64,000 nt of DNA from Bolinopsis microptera (lineage: Eukaryota; Ctenophora; Tentaculata; Lobata; Bolinopsidae): NCBI RefSeq assembly GCF_026151205.1, contig NC_087084.1, positions 7,241,394 through 7,305,393 of the forward strand, in the 5' to 3' direction. The notes beneath the pieces were generated by a model. That model did not search any database, was not told the DNA's origin, and saw only the letters and a program-made list of their open reading frames with translations. Numbering within the stretch: position 1 is the stretch's first letter; every line of letters starts with the position of its first letter. The translations under genes were made by a program, and so were the position numbers. This document shows, piece by piece, positions 6,301 to 61,366 of this stretch.

Positions 6301-9300
6301 CTCGGCCGGACATTTCACAGATAAGAGACTAGTTTAGCACGCTCGGCCGGATATTTCACAGATAAGAGACTAGTTTAGCACGCTCGGCCGGACATTTCAC
6401 AGATAAGAGACTAGTTTAGCACGCTCGGCCGGACATTTCACAGATAAGAGACTAGTTTAGCACGCTCGGCCGGATATTTCACAGATAAGAGACTAGTTTA
6501 GCTCTCCCAAAAAGGACCCCTCATCGGAATGTAATATTTACTGAAAAAGAAGGTCCCTTGAACCTGCAATATTGGGATGCAATATTCAACAAATTTATCA
6601 TATTGGACTGAAGTAATATCATTTTGCGTGAGGTTCCTCTCACTAAATTTTAAAATCGACTTTTCGATTCCATTTTAGAATTCCCAGTCGTCTCCTTGTA
6701 AATAGAGCTCTGCAACTTCTTATCGCAACGTTTCCAATCGTTAAAAATCGAAATCGTAAAAATGGTTATGTTTTTGATGTTTAGTAGTAAACCCGCGATG
6801 GGGTGGCATGTGCCTCAATAAAAATATTACAATCATTTATTATTATATCAATTTATCATTAAATATTTCAAGAATATCAATAACTAAACGTATGGTTGAT
6901 CCTTCACACTTGGTAAAATATATAAAAATAAAGTTAATCTACACTAGATTGTAACTGTTTGCGTCTCAGGTTTTCAAGACAAGCTACTCCGCTTCCCAAA
7001 CGACCTTTCCAAAGATAACTATGTGATTATGAAGCCTGATTTCAGCGCTGTACAACGGGAAATCTCCATCTGCTCCTGGCTCAAGATAGGCTTTGATTAC
7101 ACACCCTTTTCAAGTAGATTTGCTGTACCATGGTTCAGCTACGCTGTTCATGAAGCCGACAACACAATACTTTTGGGGGTTGAGTATTTCTTTATGGTTA
7201 ACTCCGCGGGAAATTCGTACCTAATGCAATTGCCAATAACTATCATACGAGATGAGTGGTACCACTTTTGTTTCACCTGGAAATCTGGAAGTGCAGATGT
7301 GTATGTTAATGGAGTTTCAGTGCTCTTTGATGAACAACGTGACGTAAGAGGACACATACCTTTAGGTGGAACTCTTGTTTTGGGACAAGACCAGGATGGC
7401 ATAGGCTGGTTTGGGGATTATGAACAGGGCGGATCGTTTGCCGGTAATTAAAGAACATATTTTTAGCGAGGAGGCTGCTTCTGTTCTTTTTATAAGTGTC
7501 CATCCAAAGTTTTATTGACATGGTAAAATTTTTCTGAGACCTAACATTATATTGCAGGTGACATGTACCAATTGAATGTCTTCAAGAAAAAACTGACTGA
7601 GAAAGAGGTGATAGAGATGTATGATAACTGTTGGTGGTGGACAGATAGGAGCCGCAAACTTAACTCTGACGTTGTTTTTAGCTGGAACGAAATATTGAGG
7701 AAAGGAGCGATTAAAGGGAACATTACAATGGAGGAAAGTAAGTGTTAAACTTACTAGGTAGGGAGGTATGGAGGTAGGGAGGTAGGGAGGTAGGGAGGTA
7801 GGGAGGTAGGGAGGTAGGGAGGTAGGGAGGTAGGGAGGTAGGGAGGTAGGGAGGTAGGGAGGTAGGGAGGTAGGGAGGTAGGGAGGTAGGGAGGTAGGGA
7901 GGTAGGGAGGTAGGGAGGTAGGGAGGTAGGGAGGTAGGGAGGTAGGGCGGTAGGGAGGTAGGGAGGTAGGGAGGTAGGGAGGTAGGGAGGTAGGGAGGTA
8001 GGGAGGTAGGGAGGTAGGGAGGTAGGGAGGTAGGGAGGTAGGGAGGTAGGGAGGTAGGGAGGTAGGGAGGTAGGGAGGTAGGGAGGTAGGGAGGTAGGGA
8101 GGTAGGGAGGTAGGGAGGTAGGGAGGTAGGGAGGTAGGGAGGTAGGGAGGTAGGGAGGTAGGGAGGTAGGGAGGTAGGGAGGTAGGGAGGTAGGGAGGTA
8201 GGGAGGTAGGGAGGTAGGGAGGTAGGGAGGTAGGGAGGTAGGGAGGTAGGGAGGTAGGGAGGTAGGGAGGTAGGGAGGTAGGGAGGTAGGGAGGTAGGGA
8301 GGTAGGGAGGTAGGGAGGTAGGGAGGTAGGGAGGTAGGGAGGTAGGGAGGTAGGGAGGTAGGGAGGTAGGGAGGTAGGGAGGTAGGGAGGTAGGGAGGTA
8401 GGGAGGTAGGGAGGTAGGGAGGTAGGGAGGTAGGGAGGTAGGGAGGTAGGGAGGTAGGGAGGTAGGGAGGTAGGGAGGTAGGGAGGTAGGGAGGTAGGGA
8501 GGTAGGGAGGTAGGGAGGTAGGGAGGTAGGGAGGTAGGGAGGTAGGGAGGTAGGGAGGTAGGGAGGTAGGGAGGTAGGGAGGTAGGGAGGTAGGGAGGTA
8601 GGGAGGTAGGGAGGTAGGGAGGTAGGGAGGTAGGGAGGTAGGGAGGTAGGGAGGTAGGGAGGTAGGGAGGTAGGGAGGTAGGGAGGTAGGGAGGTAGGGA
8701 GGTAGGGAGTAACCGTACATCGTAGTACATTCTAGTAAGAATTTGATAATCGGACTATTCTTTTAGAGGAGTGCCTCAGCAAGACTTGTGAGAGTATAGA
8801 TCCAGAATGGAAACAACGTGAGATACCCATATGCAAATTTAATACAACTTATGGCCGGTAAGCACATCTTTACAGTTTACATCATGCAAGTTGGTTCTTT
8901 TTTCATCCTCAAGTTGATGTGACTGCCCCGAGATATAATTAATAACGTTAACTCCAACCTTCACAAACTTTAATTATTGGTTTTTTGAATATCTCCTTTC
9001 TCAGAGAGATGGTGCAAAAGACAAGAGTTGACAGCTTTTTTGTTTTGGAGTCCCTTAGGCTCAGATCAAAGTATGGAATGAAAGATTATGCTGAACGATT
9101 AATACTGATATCCTGGAGTTTAACCGTTCTTCTAACGTCTTTGATAGGAGACAGTGTCATTCTCATAGCGACTATAAAATATAACGCCATCAAACATCAC
9201 AAAGTCATAGTAGCCGTAATGCAGAACATGGCTGTTTGTGATCTCCTACAAAGTGTATTCATCGTGTTACCCCGTACTTTGGTATTGATGACAGATCGTT

Positions 9301-14001: not shown

Positions 14002-16227
14002 CTAATACCGTATAATACGAGCAATGTTCCTCAGTTTATCTAACAAAGGTAGCATGTAAGGTGTATCGTCTAATGTTTTACCCATACCTGGGCACATAAA
14101 AACAGAGCAGTGTACACGTGCTCTTGATAACATTAAGTAAAGTCTACTCAGGTCATTCTCCTCATTGTGCTTCCCCAATCCGCACACGATTATCACAGCA
14201 GGCCACTCAGCTGAGTAACTATAATAAATTTTACACACTGAAATCTTACTACCGGTGTTATCATGTCTCATAGTAATATTGTTCTTAGCTAATGATACTG
14301 CATCACTACTAGTGACATTACTAGTTACTATACCTATAATATCAGAATAATTTAATTCATGTGTAGCACACAATCTATCTAACTCAATATTAAATACACG
14401 TACAATACTATCAACATTGTGATAATTAAAAACATGCATTACAGGTAATGGACCGTGTATGAAGTGTCCTGGTGATTGTGTGGGTAAAACTAAATCTAAA
14501 ATATCTGACGAGGAGAAAAATAATTTAACAAATTGATCTCTGATTTCAGATAAAATATTCGATAAATCTAACGTATTTCTTAAGTTCATAGATAAAGTAG
14601 CCCTTTGATAAGGTTTTAATATATCAATGATTGAATTAGCTAAGTTCAAAATGGTTGATTGAATGTCAGAAATATACCAAACCTGAGTAAAATCACAAGC
14701 TATCCACACATTCTTATCTGCTGATAATTCTAATAACTTGTGAATCAGTACAATAAACTTTTCAGCTGTGGTACTAGATTTAATTATTCCCTGTATATCA
14801 TCAACAAACAAATGATAACCCCTCAGTAGACTGAGTTTATCTGTTAACTGTTTGGTATCTGGATAACATGTTATCTCCACAATAACAACACTACACAAAC
14901 TCTTTGTTATTAGATCAGCTAATTGTACGGGAGTGGGATTATGTTTTTTACTAGTACTTATCAGTTTGTATTTTATACTAGCGTTATCTAACGCACTTTG
15001 ATAATGCTGCGAATTGTTTTCGTCTCCAGTAAACTTAAATACCACAACTTTATTGTCTTTATCAGATTGTATTAGCTGTATTATCTTACCACACAATATG
15101 ACAGTCTTTCCGGTCCCTGCGGGTCCGTTGATCCACAACATATTCTCACTTGAATTAAACACACTATTTTGCTGTGTGGTTAAATTTAGAACCCCAACAT
15201 AGTTGCTTATGACATCGGGAGCTTTAACAACCCCGGGATTTTGATCACGTCTGTTACTTTTTTTAGGCTCGAAAGTGATGCGACCTTCCTTAAGTTGTTT
15301 GTTGACATCCATAATACATCGTCCTAAACTGCACTTGGATTTATCACACGTGTTTCTTTCCGTGGCCCATATGGCTAACAAAATGTTCCGTGCTTTTTCA
15401 TGAGAATCTTGATCTAATCCAGCTATTGGTATTCCTGTACTCGATACTGTTTTGTTAGAAACTCTTCTAATGGATGATATGCCCTGAGTTACATTGGTTA
15501 CCCACCAAGCACGAAAATCATATACATCTTCTTCAAATATGATAGTCGACAGTTCATTATCACTTAACCGGAGTTCCGTCATCTCACTAAATTGAAACTC
15601 ACTTTTAAACCGATTACTGAAATTAGGGTACGCTGTGAACTGAAGAATATTTGCGTCCTGGTCAATACATCTGATCAACTCCACTACCTTGTTTCTCTGT
15701 TTAATTGACTTCTGGAACGTACCATTCAATGCTCTCAACTGCTGTTCTCTGTTACACTCAGGTTGCCAGTCCTCGCCAATTGAACACAGGTGGGAGTCTG
15801 GTTCACATTCCACGATCTCTCCAACATTTTCCATGTTCTTTACCTCGATAACAATGAAACTGTCCACACAAATAATGAGAAAGTCACATTCCCCGTCCTG
15901 ATCCCATGCCTTTTTGCATTTAGGACATCCTTTTCGAATATGACTTTTACCTGCACACAAACGAAATTGATGGTGAGTGTATTTGAAGCTGTGGAGAACA
16001 ATAAAGTTTCCATCTACCTCTTCCAAAGCCCTATACACCTTAACTTCAGTCTCGTAGTCCGACTGATGTCGTTTTTCAAGTCTAAAGCTGGGACCAGGCT
16101 GATCTTCATCTGGGTATATATCTATGTAGGTCTGCTCTGGTGCTCTTGGAAGCATTGTGGGCTTGTAATCAGCCGTTGAGCAGTATTCTTCGTATATTTG
16201 TTTGCCATTTTCTAAATATTTATCCAT
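14002..16227 (-). CDS. NERD-type nuclease fused to superfamily-1 helicase, uninterrupted ORF
   Basis: A 741-codon frame without introns. The N-terminal part resembles a NERD (PD-(D/E)xK) nuclease: a helix with YETEVKVYRAL (58-68), the acidic GECDFL (112-117, D115) and IEVKN (127-131, E128/K130). A cysteine cluster (C91, C101, C104) may bind metal. The C-terminal half is a UvrD-like/schlafen-like SF1 helicase: Walker A GPAGTGKT (368-375), Walker B FVDDIQ (474-479), ACDFTQ (510-515), NLRNT (548-552), the AEWPAVIIV segment (673-681) and LSRAR (700-704). Expected activity is ATP-dependent nucleic-acid unwinding or translocation coupled to cleavage, possibly genome or RNA defence. All core residues are present, so it looks functional. 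Codon choice is AT-rich like its surroundings. Gene identity beyond the domain level is not recognised. Confidence 0.8.
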   Translation of the reverse strand: MDKYLENGKQIYEEYCSTADYKPTMLPRAPEQTYIDIYPDEDQPGPSFRLEKRHQSDYETEVKVYRALEEVDGNFIVLHSFKYTHHQFRLCAGKSHIRKGCPKCKKAWDQDGECDFLIICVDSFIVIEVKNMENVGEIVECEPDSHLCSIGEDWQPECNREQQLRALNGTFQKSIKQRNKVVELIRCIDQDANILQFTAYPNFSNRFKSEFQFSEMTELRLSDNELSTIIFEEDVYDFRAWWVTNVTQGISSIRRVSNKTVSSTGIPIAGLDQDSHEKARNILLAIWATERNTCDKSKCSLGRCIMDVNKQLKEGRITFEPKKSNRRDQNPGVVKAPDVISNYVGVLNLTTQQNSVFNSSENMLWINGPAGTGKTVILCGKIIQLIQSDKDNKVVVFKFTGDENNSQHYQSALDNASIKYKLISTSKKHNPTPVQLADLITKSLCSVVIVEITCYPDTKQLTDKLSLLRGYHLFVDDIQGIIKSSTTAEKFIVLIHKLLELSADKNVWIACDFTQVWYISDIQSTILNLANSIIDILKPYQRATLSMNLRNTLDLSNILSEIRDQFVKLFFSSSDILDLVLPTQSPGHFIHGPLPVMHVFNYHNVDSIVRVFNIELDRLCATHELNYSDIIGIVTSNVTSSDAVSLAKNNITMRHDNTGSKISVCKIYYSYSAEWPAVIIVCGLGKHNEENDLSRLYLMLSRARVHCSVFMCPGMGKTLDDTPYMLPLLDKLRNIARIIRY

Positions 16228-16409: not shown

Positions 16410-17575
16410 TAGTGCCTTGAAAAAGTTCAATGTACAAAGTTTCTTGGGGTGATAATAGACGAACAGCTAAGCTGGGAACCACATCTTAATCATTTATCTT
16501 TAAAGCTGAACTCCAGTATTGTATCAATTAAGAGAATTTGCAAATTCATTCCCAAATCTGAATATTTGAAACTATACAATGCTCTTTTTATGTCACATCT
16601 TAGCTATTGTATAAGTTGCTGGGGTGGTATCCCTAAACATAAGCTGAATAAAATCTTTGCAATTCAAAAACGATGTATAAGACTGCTATTTGGTAACATT
16701 CCCAATTTTGATCATAAAGAATACTATTTAACCTGTGCACGTTCAAGAACTTATAACGAACATATGGCTAGCAAGAACTACTGTCTTGAACACACTAAAC
16801 CGCTATTCACTGAGCAGAAAATTATGAACCTGGAGAATCTGCACATGTACCATACATTTATGGAACTATTCAAAATTCTTAAATTTGATGTCCCCCAGTC
16901 GATTAAAGATCTTTTCAAGTTCTGTCCTAGAAATGAAAAACTTCGTCTGATTGTCCCATTACTGAGGTTAGATATCTCCCAACAGAACTTTTTGTACACC
17001 TCTACGAAAATTTGGAATGACCTCAGCCCCTATGTATTCGAAATTTGTGATGCTAATAAGATGGGATAATAATCCCGGGTTCTTCCAAGAATTCAGACTT
17101 GTCAGCCTCGTCAGGTATTATTAAATCTAACCTTAAAAAGCACTTGCTATCCCTCCAAAATCGAGATGACCCTAATACATGGTAACTACTTTATATTATA
17201 TCTCAAATTCTAAATCCGGTACGGCTCTGCACACATGATATCTCTCTCTGCCATGAAACATGGCTAACCTTTTAAACTATAATTTAAAACCTAAACCTAA
17301 ACTAAAACTCAACTGGGCTCTCCTATGTCACCAAACTAAACCAATAAGTAATTTTATATTATTATATTCTTCTATATTTGTATAACAAGTATATTGACGT
17401 AGTGGATGGTTGAGGGGGTTTCAAGCACAGGTCACTCTCAAATCCTAAAGATAAGCAGTGGCCTTCGGCACTTGAAACCTCTTCAAACCTCCCCTGATTT
17501 ATTTATTATTGATATTGTTTGATTGTGCCGTAAAAATAAATATTTGTTTTATTAAAATATTTGTTTTATTAATTC
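16410..17575 (+). mobile_element. 5'-truncated LINE (reverse transcriptase C-terminus)
   Basis: An open stretch at 16449-17069, extended upstream by the frame reading SFLGVIIDEQLSW, matches the end of CR1/Jockey-group reverse transcriptases: the FLGV..D..LSW motif, the SYCISCWGG region, and IQKRCIRLLF followed by the C-terminal helical domain. It stops after KMG in a frame-broken end; downstream sequence (SGIIKSNLKKHLL) continues the family pattern in another frame. The palm and endonuclease are missing, so it is a dead 5'-truncated insertion. The 3' limit near 17575 is my estimate from AT-rich tail sequence. Confidence 0.7.
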
Positions 17576-46130: not shown

Positions 46131-46614
46131 TCCCCAAAAAAGTGAAGACTATTCTTATCCTAAAGGGCCCAAAATGGCTACTACCAGCAGCCATTTTTTT
46201 TTTAATTTGAAAATTCAATTAATCATTATATATATAAATCAAGCGTTACATTTCAGCCATGCAAAATTACAATGACATATTTTGATATACTAAATGATAA
46301 ATGGTACTGCAATATAAGTTGCTTAATGTTTGGCCGGATGACAACTAACGAGAAAAATAAACTTGATTATATAATAATTAATTCGGCTGAACCAACACAT
46401 AGCAAGAGCCACATTAACGTTGGGGCCGTCTACCAAATTTGAATGACAAACATTAACAAGAAATCAAACATATCATAAATAATTATAAGGATTTTGTTCA
46501 TTACAATTCCGTCACAGCTGATAAAGAAAAAGAAAAGGACAAGCAGATAGGAAATTGGACGGACAGAATTGTAACCAACAAAAACAAATTTCTGAGCCTC
46601 ATAAGACTGATGAG

Positions 46615-49600
46615 CTAATCTGGCCAGACTGTATCGGCAGCCCAGAGGTACTTGATCAGTTTGGCCTTAAAAGTAGAAATCCGCTCTGACTGCCGGATAC
46701 ATACTGGTAGACTATTCCATTTCAGCATAGATCTATGAAAAAAGCTATTTCGGAAGGCATCCGAGCAGGGCACAGTGGTACTCATGTAAGTTGAAGTATC
46801 CGACATATCAATTATTTGAGCATTGTGCCTAGTGTATCGGGTGCCCTCTGGACGGCATAGGACTATATATGTAGGGAGCGAAACTGGAATTATGCTATTC
46901 ACTATTTTATAGAAGGTCATAAGATCGTTATAAATAAACTTCTGTTTAACAGGGAGAATATTTAGTTTCTTTTGCTCTGTAGCAAGTTTATCGTCATTAT
47001 AACTGGAGTAAGGTTCACCATTGATCCATTTAATAGCCCTCTTTTGGATAGCAACAAACTGTTGAAGATGAGTTGCAGATTGAGGGGACCATATGACAGA
47101 ACAATGTTCAAATATAGACCTAATTAACGCTAAATAGAACGATCTTTTCTGCCTTTTATCAGTAGTGAAATGACATGTTCTCTTAAGTAGTCCAAGTCTA
47201 GAGGTAGCTTTGGAAACAAGCGCTTTACATTGTGCACCCCAATTAAACCTGGAGTTTATTGCGACTCCTAAATCTGACTGAGAGGGCACAAAGTCAATAT
47301 CACTTCCAGAAAGTTTATAAAAGAAGGTATTGAATGGCAAGTTATCCAGCACGTTTCTTTGCAGGGACACAGAGAGGGCTTTGCACTTTTGTGGGTGGAA
47401 CTTCATTCGATTTCTCACTGACCAATCATAAAGTCTGTTGATGTCATTTTGGATTATGTGATGGTCAGGGTAACCAAGGATCTCCCTCCAAATTTTAGTG
47501 TCATCTGCATAAAGGGCGATATTGGTGCCTTCAGAGACACAGGAGAACATGTCATTTATAAATATTACAAACAATAAAGGGCCAATTCCAAGTATAGAAC
47601 CTTGAGGGACACCAGACCGAACTGGTAGAGAAGAAGACGTTTGGCCTCCTATCACTACTTGTTGTTGTCGCCCCTCAAGATAGGACTTAATAAATTTAAG
47701 CATTAGTCCATCGACATTAAAAATATTCTTTAATTTACTTAAAATGAGGTCATGCGAAACGCTATCAAAAGCTTTCGCAAAATCAAAATATATTATATCA
47801 GTCCTGGACCTGTTATTCAATGCAAGTGCAAGATTGTCTGTGAAAGGTATCATTTGGGTTGTGCATGAACGTTCATTAACAAAACCGTGTTGTCGGTCAT
47901 CCAACAGATCAGAACATGCAGCGTATAATGCAGTCTTTATGCACCTTTCAAAGACTTTCATTACAAGAGATGTTAACGAGATAGGCCTGTAGTTCTCAAC
48001 CGAAGACTTATCGCCCTTTTTGTGCACTGGTACTACAAGTGCCAGCTTCCAATCAGGGGGTATGCATCCGCTCGAGAAAGACAGGTTAAATAAAACACTA
48101 AGTGGGTATGCAAGGCTTTGGGCACAGTTTTTGAGGACTCTCCCATGAATCCCATCAGGGCCAGGGGCCTTGTTAGGATTTAACTTTTTAAGAATCAACA
48201 GAACATCTTCTCTACTAAACACAAGACTTGAAAAACAATCATCACGAAAATCTATGTCAATGCCATAATCGCTCTCTTGAGAAAACTGCTCATAAAAATA
48301 TTCGTTAAAAAGGGCAGCTTGATCAGATGGATTGTTTCGAAAGCGATTATGATATTTGACAGTTTCAGGGATCCTGGTTGACTTTGATTTAGATTTAACG
48401 TAGGTCCAGAATTTCTTGGAGATAAGAGCATCATCGGAGTCATCCTCAACACTGAGTCTCATTCTTTCGTCCATCAAATTTTTAAATTTTGTGCGAAATG
48501 CCCGAAACTTTTGTTTATGAGACTCAGAGTTGCTCCCCTTATGCCTTATTCTCCATTTCTCCTTATTTCGTAGGAGACGATCACATTCGGAGTCATACCA
48601 TGGGGGCTGGAACTGAGACTTAATGGTCTTTTTAGGGATCCATCGGTCACAGGCTGCACCGAGAACTCCTCTGAATCGACTCCAGGCAAGATAAGGATCA
48701 TTACACTCAAATATACTATCCCAATCGATGCTAAATAACTCAGAATTCATGCCCCTAAAATTACCTTTACTATAATTAAAGATCTTTCTTTTAGGCTGCT
48801 TAATATACTTGGTCTTAATATCAATGTCAAATGTGATACAAAAGTGGTCGGACATACACATTTCGTTTTGATCTAAAACTTTAACATTCTTAATAAGGTT
48901 TTGAATGTTAGTGAACACAAGATCTAAGGTGTTGCCTGACTTGTGAGTAGGGGAGCTAATAAGTTGTGTATGTCCGAGGTCATCAGTGAGAAAATTCACA
49001 AAGCTAGAATGTAGCTGGCAAGATGACTGACCATCTGGCCAGGAAATCGAAGCTAAATTAAAGTCACCTACCAGAATGTGCCTTTGCAATTTTCTGGCAG
49101 ATGCTAAAGTAACAAAATGTTTCTTGAAAGATTCAAAATTATCTAAGCCAAGCGTTCCTACTCTATAAAATGTTGATATACAAAAGTTTCTTCCACACTG
49201 AGTCTTAATTATGATGGATAATAATTCAGCTTGAACACTAACTTTAGAGAACTTTAGACTCGAGATATCAATGTCTGTTCTATGGGCAATCAGAACACCA
49301 CCACCGTTTTTTCTGAATTTCTTGGGCTGGGTTGCATCCACTGGATGCGATCTTTAGGATCGGTCAAGCCTAAATACTTTGTATTTGTCAGGGAGCACCT
49401 CATTACTGAGAATGGAATTTTTCAGCCATGTCTCGTTTAGAATAATGATGTGAGGCTTATGTTTGTAGATATAACCATGGAATTCATGTATCTTGGTCAT
49501 ATTTAGTGGTGGTGTTCCTGATGCTAAATCGCGTGTATTTAGGAAACCATGGACATTATTGTAAACAACGGATAAATTTGGTCCAGGGTTCAGTAAGGAA

Positions 49601-50127
49601 CAATTACAAATTACTATCAGGGAAATATTAAGGAGAGATAGAAAAACCAGACCACACCTAGACATGACCCCAAGCCAGCTGCTGGTTATACTGAAAAGTA
49701 ACTTAACAGTCTGTTTCGGTGACATGGTAGGTGACAGTTCGGTTTTTGTGGTAGATAGCAATTTTACAGAAATTGCAGCTAAGGCTGTCCCAATGCCCGC
49801 CTCCCCCCTATACACAAGTTTAAAGTGTCTGAGAAAAATGGTACAAAATATTACCATAAAGTAAAGATTTATGGATGACCTCAAACATGGTACAGAGTGT
49901 ATTTTAGGTTGTAGGGGAGCACCAGGGAGTATATTAGCATCGATAGTCAAAGAAAATATATACAAAATAACATAAAAATAAAATATACCCAATAGAGCAC
50001 ATAACATATGACGAGACAGAAGACAGGACAACAAATTTTCCCCGTTACCTCTATTACTTTTACTGATGATAACATACCTAGAAAACATACCAGTTGCAAC
50101 ACGGTGTTGTTGAGCCGATATTCCCAT
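46615..50127 (-). CDS. LINE A ORF2: hydrophobic N-terminus, NPGP motif, AP-type endonuclease, reverse transcriptase; one in-frame stop
   Basis: About 1170 codons in one frame, interrupted by a single TAA at 49354-49356, right after VFRLDRS. Residues 36-60, 85-100 and 158-175 are hydrophobic and probably membrane-spanning. SLLNPGP follows (residues 177-183; nt 49579-49590 for NPGP), then the endonuclease: NNVHGF, NETWL, GGGVLIA, GDFNL, SDHF. The reverse transcriptase follows with NKAPGPDGIHG, FDFAKAFDS (about 47770-47793), SGVPQGSILG and LYADDTK (about 47503-47520). The C-terminal domain has IQKRAIKWI. The protein would nick target DNA and reverse-transcribe its own RNA. Element B has CAA/leucine-like sequence where the stop lies, so this is probably a recent nonsense mutation. 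Confidence 0.85.
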
Positions 50128-50321
50128 GGAACTTTAAAGTATATTATTAACAGAATTGTGTCTCGCCGTTGTGTTTTGTTAGGTATTGTGCTATAATATG
50201 AAGTAACATACATTATGCTATTACTTCGTTTGAATACATATAAATAACATCCAAATGATCAGATCCAATAGGATACTGATGCAGACAATGAAAAATTTAA
50301 ATATTGAATTGAATTACCACA

Positions 50322-51833
50322 TCAGTATCCCAATGGATTAAACCACTTTGAGTGTATGATTCTGAGATAGAACTTTGCCAACACTGGCATCCCAGCTTTG
50401 GGGCTGGGATGAATATCATAAAAGCCCCTGTTGTCACATTTAGGAAATAATCTCTCGTTTCTGTTTCCATAGCGGTCTAAGAAAGCCCAAAAAACATCAA
50501 GGTAAAACAGTTTATGCCTAGAGCAGCGATCAAAGATCAAATTATTCATAGCACAAACATTACCAGGGATTTTATCTTGTCCGTTGGGGTGGACTGGTGG
50601 AATAGCTTGTACAAAAACACGTGCATTTGGATAAAGTTTTTTTGCTGTCTTCATTAGGTCACTCACAGGGGTCTTGAGATGATTGACACCCTGGGTACAG
50701 TACCGGATGTCGTTGGCACCGAAGCTTAAGAACAGTTTCTTTACCTGCACAAGAGGGTTCTTTGTATGAAAGGCCTCAATAGATTTCTGTATAGCTGAGA
50801 TCTTAAGCCCACCCTTAGCTATGTTGGTGACAGTTTCTTTACCTCTACTGAGGCGATCAGTGTCCAATCGAGCAGCAAAGGAGTCACCAGCAATGAGAAT
50901 GATAGACTTCTGGTGTTTATGAGAGTCTGTGATGGGGGCTTTTGGGGATACTTTATTAGGACTGTCGGATGTAGGAGAGGGAAGAATAGGAGATGAAGGG
51001 GAAGAGGACGGTGTGGTTAACTTTCTGAAGGAGAGACTATACCTCCAACAAATTTCATTGTCAGAAGGTGCAACTCCTGGGGCAATCCTGTGCCTCATGA
51101 CTTGCTGTGCACCAGGCTTCATGATGTTCAGTGTGCCATTGGTGGCAGGAAGGGTGAAGTCTGCGTTAATCAACTCTTGGGCTGGCCTTGACCTAGAGGC
51201 CCTAGTTGTGCGTTGTTCTACTTGGGTTGTATCGAGCACAAACTCAAGTGACCGTGGAGCCCCTATTGAGTAAGTGCAAATGGAGCTGGACTGTGATATT
51301 ATTAGGTCTTCATCGTCTTTATGGAGGCTTAACTTAGCTTGCTGAGTGTCGTACCTAGTAACAAGGCAAGCATCCATGTTGTTGGTGGTGGAGGGGAGGT
51401 CATTAATAAGTCCCATCAACTTAAAGATGCTAGGGAAGTTGTTGATGGGATGTGGCTTGTTAACTATGTTACCAAAGCAGTAGTCTTCTGATGAAGGGCT
51501 TAGCCATAGGGTGTGGACTTTTTTAGATTTGCCTTCAAGATTCATTGAATCTAATTCTTCTGTGATTTTTTTGAATAGATTTTCATCCATTCCAGGGAGG
51601 ACTGGAACGTGCTCTACGAGCGTATGTGGGCTATACGAGACATTTTGAACAGTAGTTTCCTTCTTCGTTTTCTTTTCCTTCTTCTTTTCATCTATACGTT
51701 CTATTTTAGAGGCAAGCTTTTTCTCTTTCAGACTGTCCAGGATACTCTGAGTAAGGAGGGTATGCATGTGTTGCTTTACTTCAAGAGATAAGTTTTGCAG
51801 TAAGGCGAGGAAGTTGGCGGGCAGTGTTAACAT
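50322..51833 (-). CDS. LINE A ORF1: AlkB-like 2OG/Fe(II) dioxygenase fused to SGNH esterase
   Basis: An intact 503-residue frame. Residues 33-60 are lysine-rich, which suits RNA binding. Residues about 105-272 match the AlkB fold in order: ACLVTRYD (155-162), LHKDDE with iron ligands H171 and D173, SIGAPRSLEF, MKPGAQQVMRHRI with H248, and RYSLSFR with R264 and R270 of the RxxxxxR 2-oxoglutarate site. A serine/proline linker (272-305) follows. Residues 310-503 are an SGNH hydrolase: GDS (S318), GG (341-342), GAND (N374) and the YDIHPS block (D473, H475). All catalytic residues are present. Esterase domains are known in ORF1 of CR1/L2-type LINEs. An added AlkB domain could demethylate RNA or DNA of the element; that role is inference. 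Confidence 0.85.
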   Translation of the reverse strand: MLTLPANFLALLQNLSLEVKQHMHTLLTQSILDSLKEKKLASKIERIDEKKKEKKTKKETTVQNVSYSPHTLVEHVPVLPGMDENLFKKITEELDSMNLEGKSKKVHTLWLSPSSEDYCFGNIVNKPHPINNFPSIFKLMGLINDLPSTTNNMDACLVTRYDTQQAKLSLHKDDEDLIISQSSSICTYSIGAPRSLEFVLDTTQVEQRTTRASRSRPAQELINADFTLPATNGTLNIMKPGAQQVMRHRIAPGVAPSDNEICWRYSLSFRKLTTPSSSPSSPILPSPTSDSPNKVSPKAPITDSHKHQKSIILIAGDSFAARLDTDRLSRGKETVTNIAKGGLKISAIQKSIEAFHTKNPLVQVKKLFLSFGANDIRYCTQGVNHLKTPVSDLMKTAKKLYPNARVFVQAIPPVHPNGQDKIPGNVCAMNNLIFDRCSRHKLFYLDVFWAFLDRYGNRNERLFPKCDNRGFYDIHPSPKAGMPVLAKFYLRIIHSKWFNPLGY

Positions 51834-52309
51834 CTTGTTGTGAAGTGTGGGAGGATCGGGAGGAGACTGGGTGATCCGGATAAGAGATCAACAGCAGGAT
51901 GTTTCAGTGGCACCGTTGTAAACCCTAGCAATCTGGATCTGAAACAGTTAATAGGCCAGAGATTTATAGTTCAGAGTGAGAAAAATTTGAATTATAATGA
52001 ACAGAGGTGTTGTAAAGAACTGTATAGCAAAAAAAAGAATGCAATACTTATCTAAAGGAGAAGTAGCTAAAAGGAGTTAATAAATTTCAAACATCACTAG
52101 ATCTCTAACAATAAAACTAACCTCGTACCAGACCGCAGGAGCCCTGGTAGTACAAGACTACCAGGGCAATAGGAAAAAACGATTACCACCTCCACAACCT
52201 GCCATCTAGCTCAGATCCATCACACCCAGGACACCGGCAGACTTTACTCCAACGGATTACTCATCGGTAGCCATGCCTAAATTATTTGTTATATAGTAGT
52301 GTTGAAAGT

Positions 52310-53645
52310 ATTAAAACCTCAGTATCTTTTATTTGGAGATACTGGTATAGAGATCACATGCGATGGGGAGCATCATCTGGGAACAGTGATAGGTGGAGAG
52401 GAGGCTGTAGAAGAGTTGTCAGAAATTGCTCTTGATGAACCTCAGGCAGCCCTATCATTGTATACCAAAGCCCTCTGTCATCGGTGGACCTTTGTGATGC
52501 GCACCATCCAGAACACTATTAATACCTCTTCATCCCATTGGAGAAGTGTCAAGAGAAAAGTTCATTCCGGCAATTATTGGTAGGAATGTGACTGACCTGC
52601 ACAGGAGAATGTCTGCGCTACCTGTAAGATGAGGGGTGGTTGGTAGCGTTGAGCCAGTAGAGATCGCGGAAAAGGAATACCAGACGTCACTCAAGATAAC
52701 ATAGGAGCTGGTTGACCTCATCTATGACCAGGAAGCATCCCTGATGAAGTTGGTTAAAATTAAGATAAAGGGCAGAGTTAACAGCCTCAAGTTAGTTAAA
52801 GAATTACGCTTGAAGAAGGAGCTTGCTGAGATAATGAGTGAAGTGGATGAGAATACTAGGGAGTCACTGCAACTGGTACAAGAACATGGGTCAGGAGCTT
52901 GGCTAACATGTCTCCCCATTCAACAGCTAGGGTATGCTTATAGCGAGCAAGACTTCAGAGATGCTGTTCATCTCTGGTGTGGTTGGGACATCCCTAACAC
53001 CCCAAGAATCTGTGATTATGGAGCCAAGAATGATCACAATCATATCCTCAACTGTAAGAACTACCGTCATAACAACATGAGAGACTCTGTTGCTGAATAC
53101 CTTAGGCTGGTGACCAAGGATGTGAGCTGAGGATTTAGCCCCTGTTAACACCTATAGAATCAGGCAACTTCCAACAAAAGGGCAACAATGCTGATATAAG
53201 GCTAGGCTCGATATATCAGCAAGAGGAGTATGGAGCACATTTGAGAGGACTTTCTTTGACATGCGTATTTTCAATCCTAAATCGCCTACATATCAAGGAA
53301 AGACCATGCCACAGCTCTACACTCTGCACGAGAATGAGAAATAGAACCAGTATGCATGAACAGTGTGCTACAATAATTGAAGAAAGGGTCATTTTTGTCC
53401 TCCCTGTATTTACCACTACAGGAGGAATGGCACCTGAGCTTGAGGCCAAGTGTTTTATAAGGAGACTTGCTGTGTTGATAGCCACCAAGACCAAGGAGGA
53501 CTACAGCCAGGTGATGTGTAACATCAGGACACGCCTGAGCATGGATATAATAAAGACTAAAGAGGAGTGTGCTAGTAGCAGTTAGAGGTGTACATGGAAA
53601 GCCAAAGAAGGCATGGACCGCCCCTATATCCAATGTCTCCTTCAA
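52310..53645 (+). pseudogene. Broken reverse transcriptase/nuclease remnant (right arm copy)
   Basis: The plus-strand twin of 41690-43103. It includes LLFGDTGIEITCDGEHHLG, a 128-codon frame at 52744-53130 (GAWLTCLPIQQLGY to LVTKDVS), the ARLDISARGVW segment near 53199 and the TTTGGM segment within 53241-53585. LINE A inserted into its upstream part at about 52326 and separated it from KLGYFPKKVK-coding sequence now near 46140. The internal stops match the left arm. Confidence 0.6.
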
Positions 53646-54963
53646 CCTGATACCTGAGGAGAAGAGCTACGAAGGATAGACGATATCTATTGCTCAGGAT
53701 TAACGTTTGTGCTCTGCCAATTGCATCACTTGATTTAATTTATTGTATATATATTATATATACTGTTTAACATTTTTCACTCTTCAATAAAAAACTAGCT
53801 TAATGTCAGTAGGTCGTTAAGAATTTTTGTGTGCACACACAGATACCTAACAGTATTATTATTATTATATCTTGTCTGGATATTCGAACCTTTCGAATTG
53901 TATCTCGAAATTTATGTTTAAATTCCCTGTGTAGTTTTTTCAAGGTATAATGGGAATAATATTGTAAAATGTCTATTGTATAATGTCATCATTTTATGGC
54001 TCTTCAAGTATCCATTTTGATTGATGTAGCAATTTGAAGTTGCAGCCGAAGATTTATTGATTTTAATGTGGTCCATTCTTAATAAAAATATTTTGCGTTA
54101 CTATTCGTTTAAACAGTAAACTGCTTTAGTTTTTAACTGTTTAGGAGATGATTTGAAGCAGTGCAACGATCTAAGTGCGGTGAAAACGAAGTCAGACCAA
54201 AGCCAGATGCTTTAGTTCACACTGTGACTGATTAATGTACCTCTCAACCTCTGCAGTCTGCAACATACTGACTGTCTTACTTGTAACCTGGTTAGTTATA
54301 ATAGTTATTTTTAATCGTATACCTTCAAGCTTTCCTCCAAACACTGATTTATTGCTAGTATTTTATATTACTGAGCAGACTGAACCAAGTTTTGATTAAA
54401 TGATTAAGATTATTAAAGTTGAGATCATAATCGTATTAATCCAACAATTAATGATCGCTTGTATTTGTTGCTGTGAGACACAAAACACTTTTTTTTATTG
54501 AAATCTTTCAATTATTATCATCAGAATTTATTACAATATCAATGTTGTATAGAATTTCTAAAAATGGACTAGAGAAACCAAAAAATGCCTTGACAAGTGT
54601 ACAGCGATGATAACAATCAGGGGACACCAATACACCCAAATAACCAAACAAAAGGCCTCGAGAGACCTGATGAAAAGTCGAGCAATTACATTGGGCCCCA
54701 AGTGCAGAAGGAGAAAAATGGGCAAATAATATGAGCTGTGAACTTAGGAGGCATTTCTAGGTTTTTAAGAATAATTGCCACAACCCAAAAATTCTCAATT
54801 ACAATTGGCTGATTTGTAATATTTCCAATGGAATGAAGTTTTAACGATAAAATTTAAATAATTGAATATAAAAGACTAAATCAAAATTGTATCCGAATAA
54901 AGCAAAAATGCGTGATGAGTACCTCAAAAAAAAAATTTAAAACAAAAATAATAGAGAAATACA

Positions 54964-57900
54964 CTACCCGTAGTCTGGAGAAAAAGAATTGTCAGGATCT
55001 GAACTAGGGTCAATATCTACAGATGCAGTACAAACATGTTCCTTCCAGATGTGTTTAATAAGTTCTGTTTTAAACACACCTGGTCTGATAATCTCTCGAA
55101 GGGAAAGAGGAAGTCGGTTCCAAGTGAGATGAGCTCGATAAAAGTAAGATTTAGATATAGCTGAGCCAGGTGGAATTGAAGATATTACTGATAAGTGATC
55201 AAGATGTGAGCTTCTCAGTCGGCTTGACCCGGAGAAGAAAGTAAGGTACTGAGGCAGAGTGGTGCATGGGTGGTATTGATGCACTAGGGAATGAAAGAAC
55301 TTGAGATCATGGTAATCAAACCTGTACTTTAGGGGCAGAATATTTAACTGTTTACAATGGGCATTATAGATTTCCTCTACACTATAGCTTACACCGTAAT
55401 CATTACGAATCCATTTGAGGGCCCTTTTCTGCAATCCTTCAAGCCTATTGATAGTGCTACTGGACGCTGGTCGCCAAATGATGGGACAGTGTTCGAATAT
55501 TGAGCGTACAAGAGTAAGATACAAGACTCTTCTCTTGTTCAGATCATTAATAAAATGACAATTTCTCTTAAGCATGCCAAATTTTTGGTTAGCTTTACCA
55601 TATAGAGCATCGGCCTGGCTATTAAAATTTAGATTAGACGTCATGATTATGCCTAAATCTTTTTCAGAATCTGTATAATCAAGAAGAGTTTGGCCCATAG
55701 AGTAAGTGTAACGTGTAAATGGTAAAATGCCATCTAAGGGAGACCACCTCTTAAGTATAGCTAAGACCTTACATTTATCAGGATGAAACTTCATCTTATT
55801 AGTTCTTGCCCATGTCATGAGATAATTAATATCGCTTTGAAGTATATGGTGGTCTTCCTCTTGGGATATCTCTCTCTCCACATTTTAGTATCATCAGCGT
55901 ATAAAAGGATATTAGTGCCCTGAGAAAGTCCAGAATATATATCATTTATGAAAAGAACAAAAAGTGTTGGTCCGATTATTGACCCTTGAGGAACACCTGA
56001 CAACACCGGTAGGGTTGCAGAGATAGCCCCATTAACAACTACACATTGCTGACGTCCGGAGAGGTAACTTTTCATAAATTGGAGAAGCATTCCATCGATG
56101 CTATAATAAAATTTTAGCTTGTATAGTATTAAGTCGTGGTTAACGGAATCGAATGCTTTGGCGAAATCGAAGTAAACAATATCAGATCTAATGTTCTTGT
56201 TAAGAGAGAGGGATAGGCTATCGCAGAATTCAACCATCTGAGTTGCACAAGATTTGTGAGGCAGGAAACCATGTTGACGAGGATCAATTTTATCATAACA
56301 TCTACTCAAAAGTTCATCTCGAATAATTCTTTCCATGACTTTCATAACTAAGCTAGTCAAAGATATTGGCCTATAATTCTTAATGTCATTCTTGGAGCCT
56401 TTCTTGTGTACTGGAACAACAATTGCATATTTCCAATTTGAAGGTAGGAAGCCGGATACATAGCACTTTGTGAAAAGAATCTCCAGTGCTGGGGCTAAGG
56501 TAAAGGCACATTTTTTAAGAACTTCACCATGGATTTTATCCGGTCCCATAGCTTTTCTAGTATTCAAATTCTTGAGAATATCTACTATCCTAGACGAACT
56601 GAAAAGGGTAGATACATAATCAATATCATCCTGTGTGAGTGTGTTATCAACATGTACATCATAATCACTAGGCGATGAGAACTGTTGATGAAAAAAGGTA
56701 TTAAATAGGTTTGCTTGGTCAGAATGATCACTTTTGTGTACATCTTCTAGGTGAATTTGTTCAGGTATGCGAGTATTCTTAGATGTTGCCTTTACATAGG
56801 ACCAGAATTTCTTTGTAATTAGATTCGAATCATCCTCGTCCTCAAAGCTAGATGCCATCTTGTTGGAGGCAATTTTCTTAAAATCGCTTCTGCTTTTAGA
56901 GAACTTAAAGTACTTCTCAGCCTTGCAGGAAGGGTCCGTGGTTTCTTTATAACTTTTGTGTAGCCTTTCTTTTTCTAGGCAGGCCTGATGAGACTCAGCG
57001 TCAAACCAAGGAGGTTGAGCCCTGCCTCCAATTTTAATCTTTGGAATATGTTCATTGGTTCTTTGCTCTAAAACATCCTTAAACTTGTTCCATGATGTTT
57101 CCATATTACCAGTGAACTCTGCCTGCCAGTCAATATCTGCAAGGTCTGCATTAAGTGCATCCCAATTTGCTCTTTTAAAATTTAAAGATTCCCTCTTTTG
57201 CGATTTGATGCGCTTCACCTTTGATTTCAAAGTAAAGGAGACTGCAAAATGGTCGGACTTACATGGAATATTATGTTCTGAAATTTTTATATCGGAGATA
57301 AGATGGGGTTTATCGGTTAAGACTAGATCAAGAATGTTTCCTCCAGTATGTGTTGGACTGGTAATAAGTTGCTCTAAACCAAAGTTACTAAAAGTATCTA
57401 GAAAGAGCTGTTCAACCGGATTGCTGCTACAGTAATTCTGCCAATCAATACCAGGTAGATTAAGATCCCCTGCAATTACAATACCTCTAACACCTCTACG
57501 TTGCCTTGCCTTCCTAACATAATCTTGGAAGGCGTTATGATTGTTGGCCCCTAAAGTACCTACCCTATAGAAGCTGCAAAGAATTAGTTTACTACCGTCC
57601 CTAAATTTGAGTGTTATACCAAGAAGCTCTGCCGGGCACTTGTACTCTAACTTAGTAGATACAATATCAATGTCCCTACGTATAGCAACTAAAACGCCAC
57701 CCCCATGCTTCCTAAATCTTCTTGGATTCTGTGGATCTGGTGGATGGGTTTGTAAGGAACGATCAAGTCTAAAAACTTTGTACGATTCAGGTATGACTTC
57801 AGAGTCAATGATAGACTTTTTAAGCCAAGATTCATTGATCAGGAGGATGTCCGGTTCATGGCAGTGAATATAGTGATGGAGTTCAAATATTTTAGTGTTG

Positions 57901-58520
57901 TCAAAAGAAGGATTGTCGGACTGTAGCTGTGAGAAGGGAATCAGGCCATGCGTATTAAAAGAAACAACCTTGAGGTATGTAGTAGGCCCAGGGTTAAGTA
58001 AGCTTGGGTTGACAATAATTAAAAGGACAGCGTTCAAGGTATGTATCCAAAGCATGCAGCTAACAGTAATAATATTGAGGCAGTGCATAATTAGCTGAAT
58101 GTATCCGTAACTGTCTGGTTTGTTTTCAAGACCAGTGAAGTTCAGCTTGCCAAGTAAGCCAGGAGAAGCCCCTAATATTTTATAAAGCCACCAGTCTTTT
58201 TTGAAGAGAAAAAACAATAATACCGCAGCATAGCTTTTGCTATGACTGTGGAAGAGATGAATAAATTCATTGTCTGAGATGCTGTGGAAGGCTGTGACAG
58301 TAAAAGGTCTAAAATGACACTCCAAAGCCATCCCAATCGTCACACTCATCACACATAATGCAAAATAGAGATACAAATAAATCAAAACAAAAAGTCTTAA
58401 AGCATCAAGAACCCCGATGTCGGGCACAAAGTTACCTGTTATACTAACCTGCTTAGATCTGCGGTTCTTACTGTTGTTATAAATACCAACTCTTAATCTA
58501 TATTGACTTAGATCTATCAT
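54964..58520 (-). CDS. LINE B ORF2: hydrophobic N-terminus, NPGP motif, endonuclease, reverse transcriptase; 2-bp frameshift
   Basis: The first frame (58520-55815) carries hydrophobic segments at residues 40-66, 98-108 and 141-172, then SLLNPGP (173-179; NPGP at nt 57984-57995). The endonuclease shows SFNTHGL, NESWL, GGGVLVA, GDLNLPGIDW and SDHF. The reverse transcriptase shows RKAMGPDKIHGE, FDFAKAFDS (about 56150-56175), SGVPQGSIIG and LYADDTK (about 55890-55910). Just after YADD the frame breaks in a GA run (55867-55880) and continues in the frame of 55881-54964 (ISQEEDHHILQSDINYL to the C-terminus, including LQKRALKWI). An extra GA dinucleotide relative to element A explains the shift, so the product would be truncated. 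Confidence 0.85.
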
Positions 58521-58642
58521 CTAGTAGCATTAAGGGAACCCTGTTAACCGACATCCAGCTCCAAAAACTTTTAAAATCAGTCTAATATATCTTAAAATTC
58601 GAATTATGAAAACTAGCTTGACCCCTAAAGCCCTAATAGTAA

Positions 58643-60037
58643 TTACTGAAAAGTGAATGGGTCAAAAAAGTTACTATGAACCGCTCTCAGATAAAGTTTA
58701 GCTAGGACACCCATGCCCCTAGCCTCACTGGGATGGATGTCTCCAGCCTTGAAAAATCTATCATCTCTGATATGAGGTACTCGTGGATCAAAGTATCGTA
58801 GAGAAAATGGACGAAAAGCGTCTAACATATGGAATCTTCGATATATACATTCATTCTTGATGACACTATTCATTTTCATAACAAAAGAGTTAGTTCTCCA
58901 GTCATGCCTGCTTTTGCAAGGCAGAGGTAAAAGGGACTGAAAATAAACTTTTGAAGAAGTATAAAGTTCTTTGATTAAAGCACATAGACTCTTAAATTTA
59001 AGCTTAATCTTATCTAAAGAGTCCGCATATCTAATGTCGTTCGTTCCGACACTAATACATATCTTATCTACAATGACAGACTCATTCTTAGACTTAAAAT
59101 CTCTAATCTGCTCCATCACTTGATGTATTCTTGCTCCTCCACTGGCAACAGACACAACATCAACACATTTTCTACCAAGTTTTACAGTGTCCAGCCTGGC
59201 AGCATAGCTATCACCGGCGATTAGGCACACATGTCTGAATGCTGGAGCTGTGAGGCTACCGTTATCAATATCACTCTTGACGTGACCTGACGGTTGTTCA
59301 GCTCCCTTCGTTTGTGCTACATCCGGTAGAGGTGGATGAGGACGCTTTGCCATAGCCCGGAAGGATAATGAATATCTCAGCGAAGGTGTCCCAGGCGCGC
59401 CTGATTCACCAGGAACGCGATGCTTCATAACCTCCTGGGTACCAGGTTTCATAAGCACCAGGCTTCTGTTCTCCATTCTGAAGGATCGGACAACCTTTTT
59501 GTCAGCATTGGAGAGAAAGTCAATCGTCCGGGGTTCACCAATTGATAGATTACAAATGGGCTGATTTGTGTCCATGGTTGTTTCGTCGTCTGCATGCAGA
59601 CTCGTACCTGCACTTGTTGAAGTGTACTTGAGTACTAAACAAGAGTCCATTTTGCAATTAAACCTCTCATTAAATGTCTCCATAACTTTACTGAAAGTAG
59701 GAAGTGTGGTGATGTCCTTAGCATGATGTACTGGCTTACTATCGACATATATGTAAGGCCTGTCGGTTACACTGAGCCATTGTGACTCAGGTCTTCTGGA
59801 TGAAGCCGACAAGTTGAGGGAATCACACTCAGCCAACAAGTCGGAACAAACTGTACTGTCAATTATATCTGGAATAAATTCCAAGTGTCCAACCAGGTGC
59901 CTAAAATCCATAATCTTCTGAGCAGTTTTAATGAGGGCTGCTAGGTCCTGTGTTGAAGCGGATGAAAGCGATTCAATAGTATCTTTGAGGTTAAACATTG
60001 TATTGTACCAAGATGAGGGAGCTGGATTCAGGTTCAC
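58643..60037 (-). CDS. LINE B ORF1: AlkB-like 2OG/Fe(II) dioxygenase fused to SGNH esterase
   Basis: An intact 464-residue frame with the same architecture as LINE A ORF1. The AlkB region (about 85-230) has SCLVLKYTS, LHADDE (H148, D150), LSIGEPRTIDF, LMKPGTQEVMKHRV (H206) and RYSLSFR (R221, R227). A linker follows, then the SGNH region (268-464): GDS (S277), GG (300-301), GTND (N333) and GDIHPS (D433, H435). Both active sites are complete in two diverged subfamilies, which points to purifying selection on both activities. The lysine-rich N-terminal stretch of element A is absent. The start is the first ATG after the 5' UTR. Confidence 0.85.
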   Translation of the reverse strand: MNLNPAPSSWYNTMFNLKDTIESLSSASTQDLAALIKTAQKIMDFRHLVGHLEFIPDIIDSTVCSDLLAECDSLNLSASSRRPESQWLSVTDRPYIYVDSKPVHHAKDITTLPTFSKVMETFNERFNCKMDSCLVLKYTSTSAGTSLHADDETTMDTNQPICNLSIGEPRTIDFLSNADKKVVRSFRMENRSLVLMKPGTQEVMKHRVPGESGAPGTPSLRYSLSFRAMAKRPHPPLPDVAQTKGAEQPSGHVKSDIDNGSLTAPAFRHVCLIAGDSYAARLDTVKLGRKCVDVVSVASGGARIHQVMEQIRDFKSKNESVIVDKICISVGTNDIRYADSLDKIKLKFKSLCALIKELYTSSKVYFQSLLPLPCKSRHDWRTNSFVMKMNSVIKNECIYRRFHMLDAFRPFSLRYFDPRVPHIRDDRFFKAGDIHPSEARGMGVLAKLYLRAVHSNFFDPFTFQ

Positions 60038-61366
60038 TGGATTGCCGTCAAGGTATCAAGAGCAGTCACCACCAGTTGTCAGCGATTAAGTGTAGCTGAG
60101 GAAAGAAAGTGAGTTGAATGGTGAAATAACAAAATTGAAGACAAGAATTAATGAGAACAGTGTTAGCAGCGACCAGTGGTCATTATGCTAGCAAGATCAT
60201 CAAAAAACCATCCTCTCAACAAGAAACTTGCTGAGGATGCAGCAACTGTTATCCTGGACTCATAAAAGAAGAGAGTATTATGGAGGTTGAATAATCGAAA
60301 CTGATTGAGAAGAAAGTGGTAAAAATAGGTATAACTAAATTTTTATTTAGTCAATATACAACCTGGTAGTGAAGTTAGGAGCCACCCAGCTTTATGCTGG
60401 GTGGAAGAGAAGGAGAAACTGGCAGTGAACAACTCAAGACACCCATCTGGCTCCCCAGATCCCCATCATACCCGCCGATTCAGCTGCACTTTGCCGCCAT
60501 GCTAGCGTACATGCCTAATAAATGTAATAGATTTGTAGTGTTGTAATTAGTTTAAAACTACACATCCACATTTGACACAAAACACTACGCCTTACACGCT
60601 AAACACTACACATTACACTAGGACTCTAGGAGACAATGAATCTAACGGCCTGTGATTTGTGAATAACCGAAATTTAACGTATACTTACGTATACTGTAAA
60701 TGTATCTATTTATTCACTAAGAAAATCATTAATTTATGAGCTAGTACCTGAGTGTAATAGTGCTTATGTAGATCGTGGATTTATATCTAATATTAATAAC
60801 AATGCAGTTCCCTCTTAATAAAGGTCACCATACAAGTTGTACTTTTTGAATAACTTTTTATCCTTTTTTCTAACATTTATTCTGTAAATAGTTGTTGGTA
60901 GTTCTAAAGTTTAATGGCAATTTCTGAATGTTTTGCGATACTTACTCTGGTTACTCATTTTTGTTGATGGAGGTTATTTTTAATCAACAGCGGTGTCATA
61001 ATCACTTGAGGTCCATGCTGTATTGTTGGCTGCATGTTGCAGCTTTATGAATTCCTAGGCGACTTTTAGCAATGATGATTGTATAGAAGTTGTCAACAAG
61101 CTTGAGCTGGTGCTATTGTGCTCCTGATTTCAGTGGACATTTTATTAAATTGTAGTGGACTGTCTCTCTCTCTCTCTGTTTTGGTCAACGGTTTCTGGCC
61201 ACCTAGTGAAGAGGAAGGCCTTCTCGCCGTGCCCACAGAGTGTGACTCCTGCTAGCCACACTCCAGGACTCCCTAAGTATATACAAAAACATAGAATAAT
61301 AGATATCAACGCAACAGACCTCTGGAGTCTCGAAGCTGTTACTACCTTGCTCAGAGCAAACCCACT

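Follow-up and report, generated by a model that had tools for sequence, protein, structure and literature searches.

An AlkB-like dioxygenase fused to an SGNH esterase in the ORF1 proteins of Bolinopsis microptera LINEs, with the same pair of domains in a Helitron

Type IV ORF1 proteins of CR1/L2 long interspersed nuclear elements (LINEs), as described for zebrafish ZfL2-1, combine a helical N-terminus with an SGNH esterase and are followed downstream by a second open reading frame (ORF2) that encodes an endonuclease and a reverse transcriptase (EN-RT) (PMC3905857, PMC4120745). Two LINEs, elements A and B, in a 64,000-nucleotide stretch of the Bolinopsis microptera genome (NC_087084.1, positions 7,241,394 to 7,305,393; hereafter the window) share these features, but unlike the type IV esterase ORF1 proteins, which lack AlkB, those of A and B also contain an AlkB-like dioxygenase domain. 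The words "oxygenase" and "dioxygenase" are absent from the text of a survey of 448 Jockey-superfamily ORF1s (PMC4120745). The only AlkB-encoding transposon found, by title and abstract, among the open-licence papers listed in the searches is an orchid (Phalaenopsis) Ty3/gypsy element, a retrotransposon whose ALKBH5-like ORF keeps the catalytic residues and is reported to demethylate RNA in vitro (PMC9289625). That element differs in having long terminal repeats (LTRs) and in encoding AlkB of the ALKBH5 lineage in a separate ORF, described in the title as a recent acquisition (PMC9289625), whereas the present case concerns LINEs and a Helitron, a fusion with SGNH, another AlkB lineage and many diverged families. 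Plant RNA viruses (flexi-like viruses and closteroviruses) likewise have AlkB within a selfish element's polyprotein, with RNA repair as the suggested role (PMC544882), but fused to a replicase rather than an esterase; these viral AlkBs are not among the rows of the AlkB tree discussed below. The earlier note on element A knew of no described LINE ORF1 with AlkB. No AlkB-SGNH LINE ORF1, and no LINE or Helitron with AlkB at all, was found by title and abstract among the open-licence papers listed, a search that Repbase reports fall outside; an earlier description elsewhere is possible.

Element A is on the minus strand, as are all features of elements A and B given below in window coordinates. 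It extends approximately from 46194 to 52332, with a run of ten A (46194-46203) as its 3′ end and a 5′ end set only by weak similarity of the 5′ untranslated region (UTR) to that of element B (blastn E 0.004); a target-site duplication was looked for next to this A-tailed copy and none was found. ORF1 (50322-51833) is intact and encodes 503 amino acids, comprising a basic helical N-terminus with a long helix at residues 17-55 in the predicted monomer (a candidate for the N-terminal coiled coil of type IV ORF1s), an AlkB domain (51012-51638, residues 66-274), a linker rich in serine and proline, and an SGNH domain spanning residues 310 to about 500 (50325-50906, to residue 503). The earlier note had described this ORF as an intact fusion of a complete AlkB to SGNH upstream of EN-RT, and the residues that it named are present at the positions that it gave: H171, D173, H248, R264 and R270 in AlkB, and the GDS, GAND and DxH motifs in SGNH, the last reading DIHP. 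ORF2 (46615-50127) encodes N-terminal hydrophobic stretches, an NPGP motif, the endonuclease and the reverse transcriptase, and is interrupted by a single in-frame stop (49354-49356). The SGNH part is recognized by Pfam (PF13472, 1.9e-9); the AlkB part has no Pfam match at E≤1, but matches PHROGs family 21963 (alkylated DNA repair, 7.1e-10, residues 80-272) and, weakly, NCBIfam (0.002). A single-sequence PDB search with ORF1 gave nothing significant, and element A has no significant direct sequence match to the esterase of ZfL2-1 either (4c1b, E 0.7).

Element B (54490-60573, about 6084 bp) is a complete insertion, ending in an A run and flanked by a perfect 13-bp target-site duplication, of which the 5′ copy is at 60574-60586 and the 3′ copy (54477-54489) directly past the A run. 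Its ORF1 (58643-60037) encodes 464 amino acids from a GTG (the first ATG is at 59998), with AlkB at about residues 45-231 and SGNH at about 268-456, both matched in Pfam (PF13532, 4.7e-15; PF13472, 1.2e-10); its ORF2 (54964-58520) is in two overlapping frames with a break near 55815-55881. The two ORF1 proteins are 34% identical, with the same architecture and catalytic residues in common, and the ORF2 proteins are 39-48% identical depending on the stretch. Both ORF2s match RVT_1 (E 1.1e-27 for A, 1.9e-24 for B), preceded N-terminally by an APE-type endonuclease (Exo_endo_phos_2, E 4.6e-11 and 2.5e-11), and the reverse transcriptase of A matches those of R2 and LINE-1 ORF2p in the PDB. By these two enzymes, together with the terminal A runs and the target-site duplication of B, elements A and B are LINEs, namely APE-type non-LTR retrotransposons of the Jockey superfamily; their likeness to the CR1 or L2 clade is presumed here.

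Several small features also recur in the two elements. The starts of both ORF2s (49354-50127 in A, 55815-58520 in B) encode hydrophobic stretches and then SLLNPGP just before the endonuclease, a motif that resembles the 2A-like ends of further LINE ORF2s except that the usual Asp/Glu is missing; NPGP was absent from all 11 additional ORF2 frames examined, which came from seven families and were taken as fetched. The 5′ UTRs contain GC-rich hairpins at 52141-52167 (A) and 60382-60404 (B), whose stems are perfect (11 and 9 bp) and have no obvious sequence identity to each other, with TCCT after each, and a short TTGAA..TTCAA inverted repeat is just ahead of the terminal A run in both elements.

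The earlier note covered one element, but the genome to which the window belongs (264.65 Mb, 232 contigs; about 13 of the contigs seen are chromosome-sized) holds a whole set of such families. A search with the PF13532 profile found at least 151 AlkB matches (150 of 587 first-look candidates were scored), every listed one above the cut-off. Twenty of these places, picked for differing ORF sizes, were examined by ORF and Pfam scans in fetched stretches no longer than 9.9 kb; four ORF2 stretches were added later, as were six ORF1s of further size classes, two of which proved to belong to families F3 and F6. The 20 places consist of three probable host ALKBH genes (L026-L028), five of a Helitron group (L030, L033, L035, L037, L041) and 12 of LINE type, ten of which have a reverse transcriptase ORF downstream on the same strand; L042 has one on the opposite strand only, and L039 has none within the fetched stretch. 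Nine LINE groups, as delimited here, link AlkB in ORF1 to a reverse transcriptase (A, B, F3, F5, F6, F7, F8, F9 and F10). ORF1 and ORF2 are both open in several families; ORF2 of the sampled F9 copy is in two open frames, and F4 has AlkB-SGNH but no reverse transcriptase within 3.7 kb beyond ORF1. When ORF1 of element B was the query, at least 92 matches were found (91 of 780 candidates scored), 85 of them without stops, including three full-length copies at 99-100% identity, 18 with frames of 521 or 523 amino acids (the row of element A among them), and further families 30-40% identical to B. Ten of these places were fetched for alignment; identity to A is 93-98% for L057 and L058, which have 521- or 523-residue frames, and for the shorter L059 and L060.

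An SGNH-like part accompanies AlkB in most sampled LINE groups. Outside A and B it is above the Pfam cut-off only in L033 and L035 and below it in L030, L031, L036, L037, L044 and L046-L050, while L034, L040, L041, L045 and L051 have no Pfam SGNH match at E≤0.01, although SGNH motifs of L045 and L051 are visible by alignment. Families F6-F9 have a PHD or PHD-like finger upstream of AlkB, in every case below the Pfam cut-off but with a conserved set of Cys and His residues; this zinc finger was seen in L044, L045, L049, L050 and L051, and all four PHD-type ORF1s that were aligned (L044, L045, L049, L051) have SGNH motifs after AlkB. Pfam found no PHD in the scanned ORF1s of A, B, F3, F4, F5 and F10, and no RRM or CCHC in any ORF1 scanned.

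The Helitron-type protein has the order SGNH-AlkB-Rep-PIF1, with SGNH and AlkB reversed relative to LINE ORF1. It resembles Helitron Rep-helicase proteins in having Helitron_like_N with PIF1 in frame downstream, and differs from them in the SGNH and AlkB domains at its N-terminus. SGNH, AlkB, DUF6570 and Helitron_like_N are in one frame in L030 and L037, the only two places where Helitron_like_N was seen; the open frame of L037 is 3388 amino acids long, and PIF1 (E 2.6e-22) was found only in its in-frame continuation, L056. The other members (L033, L035, L041) were placed in the group by their near-identical AlkB. The best match of the Helitron SGNH to the LINE SGNHs is weak (E 6e-4), which leaves a common origin of the two unproved. 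A Helitron with AlkB is likewise missing from the titles and abstracts searched.

The double-stranded beta-helix on which the earlier note's reading of the domain depended is present in the predicted models of the A and B AlkB domains, which match AlkB-family structures. The closest solved structures are ALKBH2 and ALKBH3, not ALKBH5, although FTO scores well too; the top match of element A is DNA-acting ALKBH2, and the best BFVD matches of element B include viral AlkBs. ALKBH2 and ALKBH3 repair 1-methyladenine (m1A) and 3-methylcytosine (m3C), whereas the eraser of N6-methyladenosine (m6A) is ALKBH5. The ORF1 domain shares its fold and catalytic residues with ALKBH2/3, and by alignment has the HxD...H Fe(II) triad and RxxxxxR, but where ALKBH2/3 have RxNLTFR the mobile AlkBs have RxSx[TS][FLY]R. 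The latter motif occurs in all 18 mobile rows and in 13 of 14 phage and bacterial rows of an alignment in which all five cellular rows have Asn. The 12 aligned ORF1s (the ten fetched copies and relatives plus A and B) all keep H171, D173, H248, R270, S318, N374 and H475; R264 is kept in 11, with an alignment gap in the twelfth (L060), and Asp is found at D174 in nine and at D317 in ten. At D473, five rows have a gap or Trp; this column must be partly misaligned, because B is one of the five and yet has DIHP.

It is improbable that the domain is a dead enzyme retained as a nucleic-acid-binding fold. Such a role would suit the lack of Pfam RRM or CCHC matches in ORF1, owing to which RNA binding must come from something else, and two Asn positions that are presumably 2-oxoglutarate (2OG)-site residues are changed in A and B; however, in 18 of 18 mobile rows neither the Fe ligands nor the two Arg have been lost, whereas conservation at other consensus positions is only 18-26%. 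The AlkB domain of ORF1 appears, by alignment and modelling, to be a catalytically complete fold kept by selection, and is inferred to be an active Fe(II)/2OG demethylase.

AlkB enzymes remove m1A and m3C, which block reverse transcription, and Helitrons pass through single-stranded DNA. The reading given slightly better than even chances here is that AlkB, tethered by the ORF1 protein (ORF1p), removes methyl adducts from the element's own single-stranded RNA and complementary DNA (cDNA). ORF1p would be an enzyme-bearing ribonucleoprotein component in which a basic helical N-terminus, joined in one subgroup by a PHD-like finger, precedes an ALKBH2/3-like AlkB and SGNH. It would coat the element RNA, tethering AlkB to single-stranded nucleic acid of the element. 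AlkB might then remove m1A, m3C and similar adducts, which would otherwise stall copying or introduce mutations, both when the RNA is reverse transcribed and during second-strand copying of the cDNA; a need for exposed single strands would account for the AlkB-SGNH pair in a rolling-circle Helitron. For the SGNH esterase, a membrane or lipid role of the kind proposed for ZfL2-1 ORF1p seems most likely (PMC3905857).

The earlier note had proposed evasion of control based on RNA modification, and in its epitranscriptomic form, in which AlkB erases m6A on element RNA or host mRNAs so that the element escapes readers or sequestration in granules, this is possible but unlikely. The nearest structures are those of the m1A/m3C enzymes rather than ALKBH5, and the same pair is found in a Helitron, a kind of element not known to have an RNA genome. 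Among retrotransposons, the orchid Ty3/gypsy ORF provides a precedent for RNA demethylation, and the plant element ONSEN is reported to be released by the m6A eraser ALKBH9B (PMC9289625), but in human cells METTL3 and m6A are reported to help L1, and ALKBH5 to suppress it (PMC7873242). Still less likely is a function as a chromatin or DNA-mark eraser, in which AlkB would act on methylated DNA, with marks such as N6-methyladenine (6mA), either where the element inserts or in copies of the element itself, with the PHD-like finger targeting chromatin. The conserved Cys/His set before AlkB in F6-F9 and the DNA-acting top structural match would fit this, as would a review's account of 6mA rising at young L1s, along with repressive marks, when mouse Alkbh1 was lost (PMC4982230), but Pfam matched no PHD in the scanned ORF1s of the six other families.

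The AlkB tree (37 rows, midpoint root) has 18 mobile rows (14 LINE, 4 Helitron group), chosen as representatives with near-duplicate loci left out, together with 14 phage or bacterial, three host and two human rows. Twelve LINE and four Helitron-group AlkBs are on one side of a branch with 99/97 support. Host L026 joins human ALKBH2 (100/97) and host L027 and L028 join human ALKBH3 (98/95); unlike what would be expected of ALKBH2/3 orthologues, the 16 mobile AlkBs of the main group are separate from both. Recent capture of the host's own ALKBH2/3 is not supported by this tree. F10, outside the main group on a branch of 1.89, may represent a separate capture, and the AlkBs of A and B group with those of the Helitrons at only 83/82. 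L028, labelled a host gene for its ALKBH3-like AlkB ORF (4355-5242 of its stretch, plus strand), has an SGNH-like ORF (5954-6811, plus strand; PF13472 0.00044, below the cut-off) about 0.7 kb downstream and may thus be something other than a host gene, perhaps an AlkB-SGNH arrangement in separate frames. The viral contig collection had no relative of the B ORF1 or of the A+B and PHD-type ORF1 alignment, and the genome contig collection, which does not cover eukaryotes, had none of the A+B ORF1; AlkB-only alignments matched eight viral and five bacterial AlkB loci, and phage (10 records) and plasmid (2 and 4 records) matches cover only part of the query.

Ratios of nonsynonymous to synonymous divergence (dN/dS, Nei-Gojobori, AlkB part, pairs with dS 0.04-2) range from 0.04 to 0.42: 0.04-0.05 in F10, 0.12-0.23 in F3, 0.22 in F6, 0.16-0.19 in the Helitron group, 0.22-0.42 among copies of A, and 0.16 between the B-type sisters L061 and L062. 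Pairs at dS≤0.02 gave 0 (L031/L025 and L044/L043) and 0.80 (L064/L066, 8 changes), and comparisons of A with B or L065 and of B with L061 or L062 were saturated. From the low ratios it follows that AlkB stayed under constraint in LINEs and Helitrons. L031 and L038, both of F3 (at C5 and C32), have near-identical ORF2s (dS 0.04 over 542 codons) and far diverged ORF1s (AlkB dS 1.67), probably as a result of ORF1 exchange between LINEs; this would fit the reticulate evolution of ORF1 reported for LINEs (PMC4120745). The reverse transcriptase tree was flagged for long branches, and its use here is confined to the PHD group; in it, the PHD-bearing families form one group (98/97) with one other reverse transcriptase inside, and their pairings agree with those of the AlkB tree at moderate support. 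AlkB is read here as an old capture, apparently inherited in part with the reverse transcriptase and in part moved by recombination. It is conceivable, at somewhat less than even chances, that AlkB-SGNH is a shared kit of selfish DNA, present here in at least nine LINE groups and a Helitron of a single genome, which class I and class II elements have exchanged and which supplies repair or demethylation of exposed single-stranded RNA and DNA during transposition; independent AlkB captures in LINEs and Helitrons are possible.

Chance capture of a host gene or an assembly artefact is rejected as an explanation, with next to no probability left to it: the same fusion occurs in two window elements of 34% identity and in many families and copies genome-wide, element B has its perfect target-site duplication, and no close relationship links the mobile AlkBs to the host ALKBH2/3 relatives.

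Elsewhere in the window, a fragment of a distant third reverse transcriptase is at 16416-16946 (plus strand), and a 741-residue ORF at 14002-16227 (minus strand), with NERD-like and helicase or STAND-like ATPase matches, is perhaps a host defence or repair gene. An Rfam scan of the window found nothing at gathering scores.

The function of LINE ORF1 is an old open question, which two conserved enzyme domains make biochemically testable. The LINE AlkBs constitute a second AlkB lineage in retroelements, beside that of the orchid gypsy element, and AlkB-SGNH in a Helitron points to a need common to copy-and-paste RNA elements and rolling-circle DNA elements, perhaps the protection of single strands. 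These findings suggest that some jumping genes may themselves encode the means to clean up the nucleic acid that they copy.
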